Of a stretch of 64,000 nt of DNA, positions 2,389-60,932 are shown piece after piece; position 1 is the stretch's first letter; each line of letters opens with the position of its first letter. Where the stretch lies: positions 1,736,001-1,800,000 of the forward strand of contig NZ_JACHBP010000001.1 in assembly GCF_014200375.1 (NCBI RefSeq), written 5' to 3'. The DNA is from Terrimesophilobacter mesophilus. GTDB lineage: Bacteria; Actinomycetota; Actinomycetes; Actinomycetales; Microbacteriaceae. Made by a program: the position numbers and the translations under genes. The notes beneath the pieces are model-generated. The model did not search any database. It was not told the DNA's origin and saw only the letters and a list, made by a program, of their open reading frames with translations.

Positions 2389-2460
2389 GCTGGTCGAGTG
2401 CGTGGCGTGGTCTGGCGCCCGCCTGGCCGAGTGCCGGACGTCGCCCACGTGTCGAAACCC
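2389..2460. repeat. Degenerate REP-like imperfect inverted repeat
   Basis: The left arm GGTCGAGTGCGTGG and the right arm CCCACGTGTCGAAACC are imperfect inverted copies flanking GC-rich sequence between the nitrite reductase and the HNH gene. This resembles the GGTCGAG/CTCGACC-type intergenic repeats I remember from Microbacteriaceae, but it is degenerate and no second full copy was seen in the window. Confidence 0.3.
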
Positions 2461-2568
2461 GACCCCCTCGCTCGCCCTCTAGTCCTCCACAGGCCGGGAT
2501 TGAATGACTTATCCCAAGATTGTCCTCAACCCCTTCCGCACTATCTTCGAAACTGGGAGAGTAGCTGC

Positions 2569-4077
2569 ATGGCGATATCCGTAGCTATCTTCACGACACC
2601 GCTCGACGCGGTGGATGCCGCGGTCGCTACTGTGCCCTCCTCACTTCCCGAGGTCAAGGGGTTGGATGACGATTCTCTCCTTGAGGTGCAGCGTCGCATC
2701 GGTGACGCTCGCCATGCGCTGGATGCCGTCGCGTCGCTCGTCGCGGGGGAGGTGGCCTTCCGATCACGTCCCGATCTCGGGTACCGCGGGCTCGCCCAGA
2801 AGAACGGATTCTCCTCCCCGCAGAAGCTCGTGCAGAGTGCGACGGGTTCGACCGGGCGGGACGCCTCCACGCTCGTCACCGTGGGCGCGATGGTGCACGA
2901 GGCGCGGGCTGCCGAGCTCGCGGACCCCGAGACGGGCGAGCTCCCGCCGGAGTACCGGCCTGCTGAGCCGTGGCTCGCAGCGGCCGGAGCAGCTGTCGCG
3001 TCCGGTGAACTCTCCGTGGAGGCGGCGCGAGCGATCCGTACCGGTCTCGGTGAACCCTCCGTCGACGCCGCAGGGGTCGGGGTGAGCGCGGACGACCTGA
3101 CCGGAGCGGTCATCCGCCTGCTCGCCGAGGCCACAGGAGTGAACGCCGACCGAATGCTCACGCTCGCGCGGCGGGTCCGCGATGAACTCGACGCCGCAGG
3201 CATCGCCACTCGCGAGAGACTCATCTACGAGCAGCGGTCGTTCCGGCGGAGCATGCGGCCCAATGGTCTTCCCCGTTACACGATCGACCCCGACATCGAG
3301 ACGGCGGCCTATCTTGACGACCTCTACGACAAGCTCACGTCGCCCCGGCGCAACGGTCCGCGCTTCGTCGATCCCGAGGACCAGGCGTGGGCGCAGAACG
3401 TCATCGACGACGCGCGCACGAACGAGCAGTACCTGCACGATGCGTTCGCCGGGCTCATCCGACTCGGTGTCTCTGTCGACCAGGGCGGTCGGCAGGGGTT
3501 TCCGCGTATCGTCGGCTCGCGTACGCCCGCCGTACGCGTGCTCGTGACCGAAACGGCCCTGAGCACGGGAGCGGGCGCCGGCCGCATCGAGGGAACGGGC
3601 CTGCCCGTCTCGATCGACACCGTCAACCGCATCGTGTGCGACGCGGGCATACTACCGATCCGCTTCTCCGAGACGGATGATGTGGTCGCGCTCGGCCGGG
3701 AGGAGCGCCTCTTCACCGGTCGCCAGAAGATCGCGCTCGCGGCCCGCGACGGCGGATGCGTCTGGCCGGATTGCGATCGTCCGCCGAGCTGGACCGAGGC
3801 CCACCACATCAACCAGTGGGGGCGTGACCGGGGCAACACCGACCTGTGCGACGGGGTTCTCCTCTGCCGGTACCATCACATGCTCCTCCATAACAACCAC
3901 TGGGAGATCGAGCGACGAGGAAGCGAGTACTGGCTTCACCCGCCACCGGATGCCGGGGTCGGCCACGTGCCGAGGCGACTCGCATTCAAGAGCGCCGCGC
4001 TGCGCGATCTTCAGCGCGAACGAGCGCGCAAGAGCGAACGACCGCGCAAGAGCGAACGACAGCTCGCCCAAGCGTGA
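2569..4077 (+). CDS. DUF222 / HNH endonuclease domain protein (13E12-type)
   Basis: Protein of 502 residues. Residues about 50-330 match the helical DUF222 region seen in actinobacterial 13E12-repeat proteins. A C-terminal HNH nuclease motif follows: Cys-x4-Cys (VWPDC region), AHHINQW, an Asn, and RYHHMLLHNNHWEI. I chose the ATG at 2569 because GGGAGAG precedes it at good spacing and the longer frame upstream (from 2398) has no RBS and odd composition. The family is abundant and multicopy in actinobacteria, and its role (mobile-element remnant or nuclease) is not established. The C-terminus ends in a tandem ARKSER/PRKSER repeat caused by an exact 18-bp duplication. It stands alone, convergent with the reductase gene downstream. 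Confidence 0.85.
   Translation: MAISVAIFTTPLDAVDAAVATVPSSLPEVKGLDDDSLLEVQRRIGDARHALDAVASLVAGEVAFRSRPDLGYRGLAQKNGFSSPQKLVQSATGSTGRDASTLVTVGAMVHEARAAELADPETGELPPEYRPAEPWLAAAGAAVASGELSVEAARAIRTGLGEPSVDAAGVGVSADDLTGAVIRLLAEATGVNADRMLTLARRVRDELDAAGIATRERLIYEQRSFRRSMRPNGLPRYTIDPDIETAAYLDDLYDKLTSPRRNGPRFVDPEDQAWAQNVIDDARTNEQYLHDAFAGLIRLGVSVDQGGRQGFPRIVGSRTPAVRVLVTETALSTGAGAGRIEGTGLPVSIDTVNRIVCDAGILPIRFSETDDVVALGREERLFTGRQKIALAARDGGCVWPDCDRPPSWTEAHHINQWGRDRGNTDLCDGVLLCRYHHMLLHNNHWEIERRGSEYWLHPPPDAGVGHVPRRLAFKSAALRDLQRERARKSERPRKSERQLAQA
4025..4060 (+). repeat. Exact 18-bp tandem duplication inside the HNH gene
   Basis: The unit CGCGCAAGAGCGAACGAC occurs at 4025-4042 and again at 4043-4060 without mismatch. 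A partial third unit (GCGAACGAG) precedes it. It adds six residues in frame near the C-terminus of the HNH protein. Confidence 0.9.
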
Positions 4078-4095: not shown

Positions 4096-4830
4096 TCAAT
4101 AGCCGGTGAACTCCTCGGTGCGGATGTCGTCGCTGTCGACTCCCGCGGCATCCAAGACACCGCGCATGGCCTTGACCATGGCGCCGGGCCCGCACACGTA
4201 GTAGATCGGCGCCGCGAGGTCGTCGACATACCGCGACAGCATCGCCGCGTCGATGTGGCCGGTCTCGCCGGCCCACTGATGCCGGGAATCGCCCAGCCCG
4301 CTCATCGTCGGAACGTAGGTGATTCGGTCATTCTCGGCGGCGACCCGGGTGAGCTCGTCCAGGAAGGCCGCCTCCTGGGGTGTGTGGTTGGAATCGAAGA
4401 CGGTGATCGAGTGGCCCGTCACATCGTGGACCGACTGCAGAACGATGGAGCGCGCCGGTGTGATCCCGATGCCCCCGGTGAGGAACACGGCCGGGCGCTC
4501 GACCTTGTGGTGGAGCGTGAAGGACCCCCACGGGGCGTCGAGGAGCACCTCCGTGCCGATGGCCGCATCCCGGAGCACGTGCTTGAACGCGGTGTCGCGA
4601 AGTCGGGTCGTGGCCTGCAGGAACGGTTCAAAGGGCGCGCTCGAGAACGAGAAGCCGCGGATGTCGCCCTCGGCATCCGTCTCCGGCGGGTTCAGCAAGG
4701 TGTAGTCGGCGAACTGGCCGGCGGTGTACTCGAATCCGGTGGGTTTCTCGAATCGAAAGGACATGGTGTTCGACGCGACCGCCTCCTTCGCGAGAAGTTT
4801 GACGGCCGGGAGCGACACGGGTTCAGACAT
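4096..4830 (-). CDS. FAD/NAD(P)-binding oxidoreductase (ferredoxin-NADP reductase type)
   Basis: Protein of 244 residues, a stand-alone reductase of the ferredoxin reductase family. The FAD-binding barrel spans about residues 1-110, with RGFSFSSAP matching the RxYS-type FAD motif. The NAD(P) domain carries GGIGITPARSIV and the C-terminal CGPGAMVKAM motif, and the protein ends in EEFTGY. It has no [2Fe-2S] ferredoxin domain, so it would need a separate acceptor. The start ATG is at 4830 and the RBS is weak. It is transcribed away from the MmgE/PrpD gene across a 175-base region with repeated TTTCTAAAA-type boxes, which suggests joint control. The partner protein and substrate are unknown. Confidence 0.85.
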   Translation of the reverse strand: MSEPVSLPAVKLLAKEAVASNTMSFRFEKPTGFEYTAGQFADYTLLNPPETDAEGDIRGFSFSSAPFEPFLQATTRLRDTAFKHVLRDAAIGTEVLLDAPWGSFTLHHKVERPAVFLTGGIGITPARSIVLQSVHDVTGHSITVFDSNHTPQEAAFLDELTRVAAENDRITYVPTMSGLGDSRHQWAGETGHIDAAMLSRYVDDLAAPIYYVCGPGAMVKAMRGVLDAAGVDSDDIRTEEFTGY

Positions 4831-4891
4831 GGTGATTCATCCGATCAGGCGGAGAAGCGACGGGGGGAGTTCTCCGCGGCACCCGCCCACA

Positions 4892-4989
4892 TTTCTAAGA
4901 ATACCATTTTGAGTTTTTAGAAACCGAGCGTTGCAGCAGGCCAACGGCTCGGCACGTTTTCTAAAAAGAGCGTACGGTGATTTTAGAAG
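4892..4989. promoter_or_regulatory. Two operator-like inverted repeats with identical geometry between divergent genes
   Basis: Four AT-rich ten-base boxes lie in the gap: TTTCTAAGAA at 4892-4901, TTTTTAGAAA at 4914-4923, TTTCTAAAAA at 4958-4967 and ATTTTAGAAG at 4980-4989. They form two inverted pairs, each with exactly 12 bases between arms and 32 bases overall. The fourth box ends 16 bases before the ATG of the MmgE/PrpD gene and overlaps its leader just upstream of the RBS (GAAAGGTGG). In GC-rich DNA this spacing strongly suggests regulator binding. The regulator is not identified. Confidence 0.65.
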
Positions 4990-5005
4990 TGAAAGGTGGT
5001 CCGCG

Positions 5006-6427
5006 ATGACCGAAGTGCACGACCTGGCAGCGTTCGTCCACGGCGCGACGTTCTCCCGGCTGAGTCCCGCCGCGGTGGAACAGCTGAAGATCCGCGTGCT
5101 CGACACCGTCGGCATCGCGATCGCAGCCCTGGACGCACGGCCCCTCGTCGCCATCCGCGAGCTCACCGAATCGCTCGGCGGAAACGGGGAATCGACTCTC
5201 ATCGGCGGCGGGACATCCGCGCCCGACCGCGCCGCGTTCTACAACATCGCGCTCAGCCGCTACCTCGACTTCATGGACAGCTACCTCGCCGCGGGCGAGA
5301 CGAACCACCCGTCCGACAACATCGGCGCTGTGCTCGCCGCCGCGGAGAGCGCCGATGCCGGCGGAGCCGACTTCCTCACTGCCGTCGCGGTCGCCTACCA
5401 GGTCCACACGAGGCTGTCGGATGTCGCCCCCGTCCGCGCGAAGGGCTTCGACCATACCGTGCAGGGCGCATACGCGGTCGCCGCCGCCGTCTCGAAGGCG
5501 CTCGGGCTGAGCGTCGACCAGACCGCCAACGCGATCGCGATCTCCGGGACGGCCAACAACGCGCTGCGGGTCACCCGCACCGGGAATCTCTCCAACTGGA
5601 AGGGTCTCGCCTACCCGCAGGTCGGCAAAGAGGGCACGTTCGCCGCGCTCCTCGCACGCGCAGGCATCACCGGCCCGGAGCGGGTGTTCGAGGGCAACAA
5701 GGGGTTCAAGGAGACCATCGCGGGCGACTTCACGATCGACTGGTCGAAGGAGGACCTCGAGAGCGTGCTGCGCACGATCATCAAGAAGCACAACGCGGAG
5801 ATCCACTCGCAGTCCTCGATCGACGCCGCCATCGGCATCCGCTCGCAGGCCGGATTCGACGCGACGAAGATCGCGGCCGTGCGGGTCACGACCTTCCAGG
5901 TCGCCTTCGACATCATCGGTGGCGGCGAGGAGGGCAGCAAGCGCGAGATTCGCACGAAGGAGGAGGCCGACCACTCCCTGCTGTACATGGTCGCCGCGGC
6001 GCTCCTCGACGGCGAGGTACAGCCGGCCGCGTACGAGCCGGAGCGCATCGCGCGCGCGGACGTGCAGGAGCTCCTCCAGAAGGTCACCGTGACCCCGGAT
6101 GCCGGATATTCGGCCAGGTTCCCGAACGAGATGCCCGCCCGCGTCGAGGTCGAACTCGCCGACGGCACCGTGCTCAACGCCGAGACCGCATCGTATAAGG
6201 GCTTCTTCACGAACCCGCTCGACTGGGCGGATGCGCTCGCCAAATTCACCGGGCTCGTCACGCCGTTCACGGGGGCGACCCTGCGCGACGAACTCGCAGG
6301 CGTCATTCACGACCTGGATTCGAGGCCGGTCAGGGAGCTCACCACGCTCCTCGCCCGGGTGCCGCTGCGACGCACGCCGTCGACGCGGGATAACGGATCC
6401 ACCCAGAAGGCAGGTCACCGCCCGTAG
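5006..6427 (+). CDS. MmgE/PrpD family protein
   Basis: Protein of 473 residues matching the MmgE/PrpD fold (2-methylcitrate dehydratase, aconitate decarboxylase and relatives), seen from the start (LAAFVHGATFSRLSP, VLDTVGIAIAAL) through the helical domain (GAYAVAAAVSKALGL, GTANNALRVTRTGNL) to the small C-terminal domain. ATG 5006 is preceded by GAAAGGTGG; a longer frame from 4931 would start inside the operator region. It is followed after 38 bases by a ComA-like gene, probably in one transcript. No prpB or prpC is nearby, so the methylcitrate cycle is not supported. A hydro-lyase, decarboxylase or isomerase acting on a small carboxylic acid is likely, but the substrate is unknown. Confidence 0.85.
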   Translation: MTEVHDLAAFVHGATFSRLSPAAVEQLKIRVLDTVGIAIAALDARPLVAIRELTESLGGNGESTLIGGGTSAPDRAAFYNIALSRYLDFMDSYLAAGETNHPSDNIGAVLAAAESADAGGADFLTAVAVAYQVHTRLSDVAPVRAKGFDHTVQGAYAVAAAVSKALGLSVDQTANAIAISGTANNALRVTRTGNLSNWKGLAYPQVGKEGTFAALLARAGITGPERVFEGNKGFKETIAGDFTIDWSKEDLESVLRTIIKKHNAEIHSQSSIDAAIGIRSQAGFDATKIAAVRVTTFQVAFDIIGGGEEGSKREIRTKEEADHSLLYMVAAALLDGEVQPAAYEPERIARADVQELLQKVTVTPDAGYSARFPNEMPARVEVELADGTVLNAETASYKGFFTNPLDWADALAKFTGLVTPFTGATLRDELAGVIHDLDSRPVRELTTLLARVPLRRTPSTRDNGSTQKAGHRP

Positions 6428-6465: not shown

Positions 6466-7287
6466 ATGGCAAACACGAGTTTCGACTTCATCCCGCGCGC
6501 ATTCCGCCCCGAGAAGCCCCGGACGTTCGGACTCACCGAGGTGCGCGGTCCGTACTACTCCACCTACGGAACCCGGCACCTCGCCGACGTGCTCGACGTG
6601 GCCGGCCAGTGGGTCGACGGCGTCAAGTGGGCGGGCGGATCCTTCGCCCTTCTCCCACGTGAGCAGGTACGCGCGTTCAGCGACCTCGCCCACGAGCACG
6701 ACGCCTACATCTCCTCCGGCGGATGGCTGGAAACCGTCCAGCGCTACGGAACGGATGCCATCGACCACTACCTCAAGGAGGCCAAGGAGGTCGGTTTCGA
6801 CGTCATCGAGATCTCGGCCGGCTTCATATCGATTCCGACATCCGGTCTGCTGCGCCTGATCGAGCGGGTCAAGAAGGCCGGCCTGAAGGCCAAGCCGGAG
6901 CTCGGCATCCAGTTCGGGTCCGGCGGAGACTCGACGGAGGAGGAGCTCGCCGCGGAGGGCAAGAAGGATGTCGGCGACCTCGTCGCCCGCGCCAACAAGG
7001 CTCTCGAGGCCGGCGCCGACATCATCATGATCGAGTCGGAGGGCATCACCGAGAACGTGACGACCTGGAACACGGCGCCCGTCGCCTCCATCATCAACGG
7101 TGTCGGTATCGAGCACGTCATGTTCGAGTCCGCAGACCCGCTCGTGTTCGAGTGGTACATCAAGAACTACGGCAACGAGGTCAACCTCTTCGTCGACCAC
7201 TCGCAGGTGCTGCAGCTCGAAGGGCTGCGCCAGAACATCTGGGGCAACAAGTCGACGTGGGGACGCATCGCGAACCCCGCCTTCTGA
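6466..7287 (+). CDS. ComA / phosphosulfolactate synthase-like protein
   Basis: Protein of 273 residues with a (beta/alpha)8-type pattern of the ComA family, whose archaeal founder adds sulfite to phosphoenolpyruvate in coenzyme M synthesis; a plant homologue is HSA32. Family stretches include KWAGGSFALLP, SSGGWLETV, GFDVIEISAGFISIP and ADIIMIESEGI. The start ATG 6466 has AAGGAG at good spacing. The genome type makes coenzyme M synthesis unlikely and no comB or comC partner is seen. Coupling to an MmgE/PrpD gene and facing a flavin reductase suggests use of a sulfonate or phospho-acid in catabolism, which is inference. Family assignment is good, reaction uncertain. Confidence 0.8.
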   Translation: MANTSFDFIPRAFRPEKPRTFGLTEVRGPYYSTYGTRHLADVLDVAGQWVDGVKWAGGSFALLPREQVRAFSDLAHEHDAYISSGGWLETVQRYGTDAIDHYLKEAKEVGFDVIEISAGFISIPTSGLLRLIERVKKAGLKAKPELGIQFGSGGDSTEEELAAEGKKDVGDLVARANKALEAGADIIMIESEGITENVTTWNTAPVASIINGVGIEHVMFESADPLVFEWYIKNYGNEVNLFVDHSQVLQLEGLRQNIWGNKSTWGRIANPAF

Positions 7288-11332: not shown

Positions 11333-11734
11333 ATGACGCAGTATCGGATCAGCGAAGCGGCCAGGCTGCTCGGCGTGAGCGATGACACCGTCCGACGCTG
11401 GGTGGTCGCGGATGTCGTGGAGGCGACGCAGGACGACGCAGGTCGCCAGGTCATCGCCGGCACCGAGCTGGCGCGCCACGCGCAGGCCACCGCGGTCGCA
11501 CCCGGCGACCCGTCCGGCATCGGCAGCAGCGCACGCAACCGGATGGTCGGGCTCGTGACGGCCATCGTGAGCGACACCGTGATGTCGCAGGTCGAGCTGC
11601 AGTGCGGTCCCCATCGCATCGTCTCGCTCATGTCCACCGAGGCCGTGGGCGACCTCGGGCTCGAGATCGGGTCCCTCGCCGTCGCCGTCGTCAAGGCAAC
11701 CATGGTCATCGTCGAGACGCCGAACGGTTCGTGA
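11333..11734 (+). CDS. Molybdate-responsive regulator: HTH (MerR/excisionase type) plus TOBE/Mop domain
   Basis: Protein of 133 residues. Residues 1-45 are a helix-turn-helix (YRISEAARLLGVSDDTVRRW). Residues about 65-130 are a molbindin/TOBE domain (RNRMVGLVTAIVSDTVMSQVEL to VVKATMVIVE) that binds molybdate. It is the first gene of the molybdate operon, and its stop overlaps the modA start (GTGA). By analogy with ModE it probably represses mod genes when molybdate is plentiful, though it is a different architecture from E. coli ModE. It is divergent from moeA, so it may control both. Confidence 0.85.
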   Translation: MTQYRISEAARLLGVSDDTVRRWVVADVVEATQDDAGRQVIAGTELARHAQATAVAPGDPSGIGSSARNRMVGLVTAIVSDTVMSQVELQCGPHRIVSLMSTEAVGDLGLEIGSLAVAVVKATMVIVETPNGS

Positions 11735-60781: not shown

Positions 60782-60932
60782 TGCCTTCCTCGCAGTCTAA
60801 GGATTACTCGAGACAGTTTAGAATGTAGAATACTGCAGTTCACGCAGAAATCCAGCCGTTTCTGACGGATAGTCAGTCACCGACCATCTCTGTCCGCGCC
60901 GAGTCGGCGTCAGAGGTGCCCAGTAGCATGGG

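Follow-up and report, generated by a model that had tools for sequence, protein, structure and literature searches.

Two inverted repeats between a reductase gene and the mmgE-comA operon of Terrimesophilobacter mesophilus as putative operators of a SufR-like winged-helix regulator

Two AT-rich inverted repeats, IR1 and IR2, separate a reductase gene from a divergent mmgE-comA operon in the 64,000-nucleotide stretch analysed here (the window). The pair is genuine and lies beyond chance. IR1 and IR2 are probably operators of a SufR-like winged-helix regulator of the type of P0004, a protein encoded elsewhere in the same genome. The main evidence for this putative assignment is that a matrix trained on promoters of the P0004 family, with the window sequence excluded, gave IR1 and IR2 the highest scores in the window.

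The inverted repeats and their flanking genes

The initial annotation had described two 32-bp repeats with equal N12 spacers, 66 bases apart, between the reductase and mmgE/prpD genes, and these coordinates were verified (Table 1). Both repeats contain the core TTCTAA-N18-TTAGAA with a 12/12 match, at 4893–4922 in IR1 and at 4959–4988 in IR2. From IR1 to IR2 there are 66 bases start to start and 34 bases in between. The half-sites start at 4892, 4914, 4958 and 4980, their offsets from the first being multiples of 22, or about two helical turns. The mmgE start codon lies 16 bases beyond the end of IR2, and IR1 starts 61 bases from the start codon of the reductase gene.

Table 1. Positions in the window of the repeats and of the genes on either side
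Feature	Position	Strand	Description
IR1, TTTCTAAGAA-N12-TTTTTAGAAA	4892–4923	none	9/10 complementary; putative operator, reductase-proximal
GC-rich spacer, 34 bases	4924–4957	none	separates IR1 and IR2
IR2, TTTCTAAAAA-N12-ATTTTAGAAG	4958–4989	none	8/10 complementary; putative operator, mmgE-proximal
P0003, NAD-binding flavin/ferredoxin-type reductase	4096–4830	−	PF00175; divergent gene
P0001, MmgE/PrpD family protein	5006–6427	+	PF03972 and PF19305
P0002, ComA-family protein	6466–7287	+	PF02679

The AT-rich arms noted in the initial annotation also set the repeats apart: among the 79 inverted repeats of the window with a 10-12-10 layout and 8/10 or more pairs, IR1 and IR2 alone were AT-rich and formed the sole mutually matching pair. 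Dinucleotide shuffling of the intergenic region (175 bp), repeated 3000 times and with any spacer of 4–30 allowed, never produced a comparable pair. Searching the 64 kb for the half-site TTTTTAGAAA with up to two mismatches returned four matches, exactly the four arms of IR1 and IR2, and the three genome-wide matches to TTYTTAGAAR without mismatches all lay at this locus. That the repeats are not scattered through the genome was borne out as well, as the 2.41-Mb genome held no further site of the IR1/IR2 type within three mismatches. The spacer variants TTTCTAA-N8..28-TTAGAAA recovered IR1 alone in the genome. Neither plasmid copies of the intergenic DNA nor sigma-70 promoters recognizable by consensus at the locus were found, and the literature matches to the half-sites that we examined were entries in primer lists. 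Another palindrome of this kind, GTCTAA-N17-TTAGAA (11/12), weaker than IR1 and IR2, was seen at 60795–60823 of the window, where it separates a surface-repeat protein gene from a dnaX-like gene (both named by eye).

The exact pattern with up to three mismatches occurred in 5/398 genomes of the family and 8/396 genomes of the order, the own genome being counted in each. Apart from the own pair, the forward pattern had 5 places in the family and 12 in the order, and the reversed control had 9 and 15, respectively. The best-looking match, in genome G736 (L108), was set aside as chance; it lies in an AT-rich intergenic stretch 3' of a gene that resembles a tryptophanyl-tRNA synthetase gene by eye.

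A ComA-family open reading frame (ORF) accompanied mmgE in 80 of 83 clustered MmgE loci, which represent 82 distinct loci (L006 and L039 share one record). In this 83-locus comparison, no cluster joined the reductase to other loci. Orthologues of the reductase, with 73% identity, were present in two of seven genus relatives (E 1e-25), and upstream of these two genes there were neither repeats nor mmgE. At E 1e-60, MmgE had no match in the seven genus relatives and was detected in 3/60 genomes, including its own. In the phylogenetic tree, the window MmgE joined seven sequences from Proteobacteria (support 99/94), followed by Arthrobacter castelli, and stood apart from the Leucobacter and Microbacterium proteins; because of this grouping, the gene was probably acquired laterally. 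No known function of the mmgE-comA operon was found. Between a multicopper-oxidase gene (9–2348) and the reductase gene lies an ORF (2398–4077) that appears HNH-endonuclease/DUF222-like by eye.

A candidate regulator family whose promoters share the palindrome

The initial annotation had seen no regulator gene adjacent to the repeats, which is true of the flanking genes that we read; among the ORFs inspected, the nearest one of a DNA-binding type was that of a small TOBE protein (11333–11734), whose helix-turn-helix (HTH) match was sub-threshold. The motif, which the initial annotation could not match to a known family, could be matched to the P0004 family, some of whose promoters share the palindrome. 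P0004 was chosen by inspecting the loci around half-site matches. With up to one mismatch, TTYTTAGAAR had 27 matches in the genome, four at this locus and 23 elsewhere, compared with 69 for the reversed control; since the half-site is rarer than its control, a lone match means little. One of the 23 outside matches begins 22 bases before the start codon of P0004, a winged-helix protein of 220 amino acids encoded at G000:C1:998018-998677, about 740 kb from IR1 and IR2. First-look candidates of the same broad kind numbered 24 in the genome.

When the 23 outside loci were scanned in stretches, no palindrome of 11/12 was present. Palindromes of 10/12 occurred at L124 (the regulator promoter), L125, L126 (two) and L179. 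At about 1420–1560 of L123 (G000:C1:2007620-2007760), several TTTTAGA-like half-sites whose inverted partner is absent stand upstream of a gene for an extracellular solute-binding protein.

A match to P0004 was present in 7/7 genus relatives, in 15/40 genomes at E 1e-35 and in 26/376 genomes of the order at E 1e-42, the own genome being included in the latter two counts. We assembled the promoters of 39 P0004-family genes, including the own one, with starts set by tblastn; some of these genes come from closely related genomes (for example four of genus g43, and the own genus), hence the promoters are not independent of each other. The palindrome TTCTAA-N17/18-TTAGAA reached at least 11/12 in 14/39 promoters, 0/780 shuffles and 0/39 coding controls, and was perfect (12/12) in seven promoters. 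At 10/12, the count was 19/39 promoters versus 3/780 shuffles and 0/39 coding controls. The remaining 25/39 promoters fall below 11/12. In a scan of spacers from 0 to 44, lengths of 17 (seven regions) and 18 (seven) stood out, the next being a spacer of 2 with two regions. IR1 and IR2, with spacer 18, thus share their spacing with 7 of the 14 well-matched promoters, while the other seven have 17. The half-site itself was present in 35/39 family upstream regions, 31/780 shuffles and 0/39 coding controls.

The matrix was built from 13 P0004-family promoter sites, which scored 24.6–39.8 in training. In the 64 kb, it ranked IR1 (33.7) and IR2 (33.6) on top, and the next independent site, at 60793, scored 18.1. 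The own P0004 promoter carries a 10/12 palindrome with spacer 17 and a degenerate left half; its matrix score of 22.8 is below that of all training sites, and the P0004 promoters of the genus relatives resemble this degenerate palindrome. In 31 of the 38 loci examined, the P0004-family gene was divergent from folE or doxX. The neighbours of the own P0004 gene are folE-like and response-regulator-like ORFs, as judged by eye and, for folE, also from the comparison of loci. Two genus relatives (L097 and L098, 3119–3739) contain a distant P0004 paralogue with about 33% identity, located approximately 5 kb from the reductase gene; the palindrome is absent there.

All 39 family members have invariant cysteines at positions 168, 182, 213 and 214 (C168-X13-C182-X30-C213-C214). 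Above the Pfam cut-offs, P0004 matched the IclR-type HTH, HTH_24 and AbiEi_4 models, with HTH_20 just below; these matches are generic, and those to ArsR-type models of NCBIfam were weak. An AlphaFold model of the protein had a mean pLDDT of 89 and a pTM of 0.58. In a fold search against the PDB, this model matched nothing at E 0.001 or below, and the best of the weaker matches were a Pyrococcus heat shock regulator and winged helices of the ArsR/SmtB type. By its cysteine pattern, P0004 is a candidate member of the SufR/COG2345 group, and a role as an Fe-S or redox sensor is plausible.

Like SufR (of Synechocystis, and Rv1460), P0004 has at least three conserved C-terminal cysteines and a predicted winged-helix DNA-binding part, the latter from generic HTH and ArsR-type matches of its N-terminus. 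Mycobacterium tuberculosis SufR (Rv1460) is reported to require C203, C216 and C244 (PMC6034842). The first two cysteines have a spacing of 12 in SufR and of 13 in P0004. SufR autoregulates its own gene, as is proposed here for P0004. The operators differ: the cyanobacterial SufR site is given as CAAC-N6-GTTG (PMC8593673), in contrast to TTCTAA-N17/18-TTAGAA in the P0004 family, and CAAC-N6-GTTG was absent from IR1 and IR2 when these were read directly. The genomic setting in the own genome also differs: a SufR gene would be expected beside a suf operon, and the own P0004 gene adjoins the folE-like and response-regulator-like ORFs.

Control of the mmgE operon in other genomes

The evidence agrees with the suggestion of the initial annotation that a specific regulator binds sites spaced by two helical turns, and the P0004 family, in whose promoters the palindrome recurs, is a candidate for it. 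The accompanying expectation that the repeats would be conserved upstream of orthologous gene pairs failed, as they were found at none of the 80 other mmgE loci, where the best match was 13/20; the 12-base core at 11/12 or better was likewise absent from all of L014–L093.

Other elements were frequent at these loci. We scored the upstream regions of 81 loci, the window among them, each region being 100 bases or longer, using coding DNA as the control and thresholds that were set after the data had been seen. A DtxR/IdeR-type iron box (at least 14/19) preceded mmgE in 42/81 regions, compared with 1/81 for the in-gene control. The MarR-like palindrome TATCTTGAYRTCAAGATA (at least 14/18) was present in 33/81 regions and absent from the control, and a Fur-like box (at least 13/19) occurred in 4/81 regions and once in the control. 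The MarR-like palindrome includes a TTGACR stretch and often directly precedes the iron box (L024–L083, e.g. L028, L048 and L057). Where both are present, mmgE-comA is apparently under double control, judging by these predicted sites.

For Corynebacterium glutamicum, PMC1382209 lists a DtxR site at a distance of 18 for cg2796 (MmgE/PrpD), with +1610 in the last column of its table, a value that we take to come from qRT-PCR on a dtxR mutant. Both cg2796 and cg2797 are termed DtxR-regulated in PMC7764795. We infer from its name and partner gene that cg2796 is the orthologue of the window mmgE. Both systems would then consist of an MmgE/PrpD gene and a following partner gene controlled at the promoter, with a DtxR site in C. 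glutamicum and with two other palindromes and no iron box in the window.

Arthrobacter castelli (L018, genome G770) has a 24-bp palindrome, TTAGGAAAC-N6-GTTTCTTAA, upstream of mmgE. Within two mismatches, this box recurs before iron-transport-type genes for Peripla_BP_2 and FecCD proteins (L118, L119), and a search at three mismatches gave five places versus two for the reversed control. Because its copies precede Peripla_BP_2 and FecCD genes, the palindrome looks like an iron-uptake box. Like the window repeats, it is palindromic, precedes mmgE-comA and does not resemble the common iron box; it differs from them in that its copies recur at iron-transport-type genes.

Alternative explanations and proposed regulation

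The iron boxes before mmgE in 42/81 regions and the listing of cg2796 as DtxR-controlled (PMC1382209) might suggest that DtxR controls the operon here too, through a diverged box. We searched the own genome with the consensus TWAGGTWAGSCTWACCTWA and obtained six matches within three mismatches, against none for the reversed control. Such boxes precede the genes for an ABC ATPase (one mismatch), a heme oxygenase (two) and an FTR1-type permease (two), and boxes with three mismatches precede a DtxR-type regulator gene, a VTT-domain gene and a sixth place. None is at mmgE, whose best upstream match is 10/19, and a diverged iron box is scarcely probable. Descent of the repeats from a mobile element, or their chance occurrence in an AT-rich promoter, would agree with the apparently horizontal acquisition of mmgE-comA and with the AT-richness of the region relative to its surroundings. 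Such an origin deserves equally little credence given the lack of additional copies in the genome and of any such pair among the 3000 shuffles.

The four alternating arms permit mutually exclusive pairings and could therefore form alternative hairpins, as an attenuator or terminator, in the leader of the mmgE or reductase transcript. Folding of 4885–5008 (+), 4831–4995 (−) and 4912–4969 (−) gave z-scores of −2.87, −2.80 and −3.65, respectively. However, when the arms were kept and the spacers shuffled, 114/1000 sequences folded equally well, which leaves little support for an RNA apart from the arms themselves. There was also no Rfam match at E 1 and no terminator-like site, and before the regulator genes the palindrome is found again at differing distances; we consider an RNA leader very unlikely. 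A hairpin at 4924–4956 is possible and not clearly above chance (197/2000 shuffles fold equally well), and a single large palindrome or RNA structure was rejected as not clearly beyond chance once the arms were kept. More weight, though still that of an unlikely explanation, goes to a different regulator, either a P0004 paralogue or an unrelated protein, that reads a similar palindrome. The degenerate left half of the own P0004 promoter and the 24 loosely related first-look candidates speak for it. Against it, sequence and spacing agree with the P0004-family promoters far above control, and many of these promoters are divergent, like this locus.

If a P0004-type regulator does act here, its dimer would touch the TTCTAA and TTAGAA half-sites, which are separated by two turns, from a single side of the helix. 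With one dimer on IR1 and another on IR2, the divergent promoters of the reductase gene to the left and mmgE-comA to the right would be coupled, and the regulator would also act on its own promoter. Repression is the likelier sign of regulation, because IR2 ends so close to the mmgE start codon. The analysis established the repeats, their departure from chance, the palindrome that they have in common with P0004-family promoters and the occurrence of the regulator gene in this genome; binding, the geometry of the dimers, repression and a ligand of the Fe-S or redox type are what we infer. A palindromic operator of a winged-helix regulator is of a known kind. To our knowledge, no TTCTAA/TTAGAA operator has been described, and keyword searches of a limited open-access literature did not return this link between operator and regulator.

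We tentatively entertain a wider reading, which is possible rather than probable: TTCTAA-N17/18-TTAGAA may be the operator of a SufR-like sensor, as yet undescribed, that responds to Fe-S, redox state or nitric oxide and controls folE, doxX and itself in Actinobacteria. The mmgE operon, which has DtxR, Fur-like or lineage-specific iron boxes in other genomes, may in this genome have moved wholesale from iron sensing to that sensor by gaining two operators. The putative assignment to the P0004 type would tie an orphan DNA motif to a concrete regulator family. It would also mean that mmgE-comA, which often has an iron box in other genomes, is controlled through another element in this one lineage, and may thereby give access to the sensor as well as to the mmgE-comA operon.
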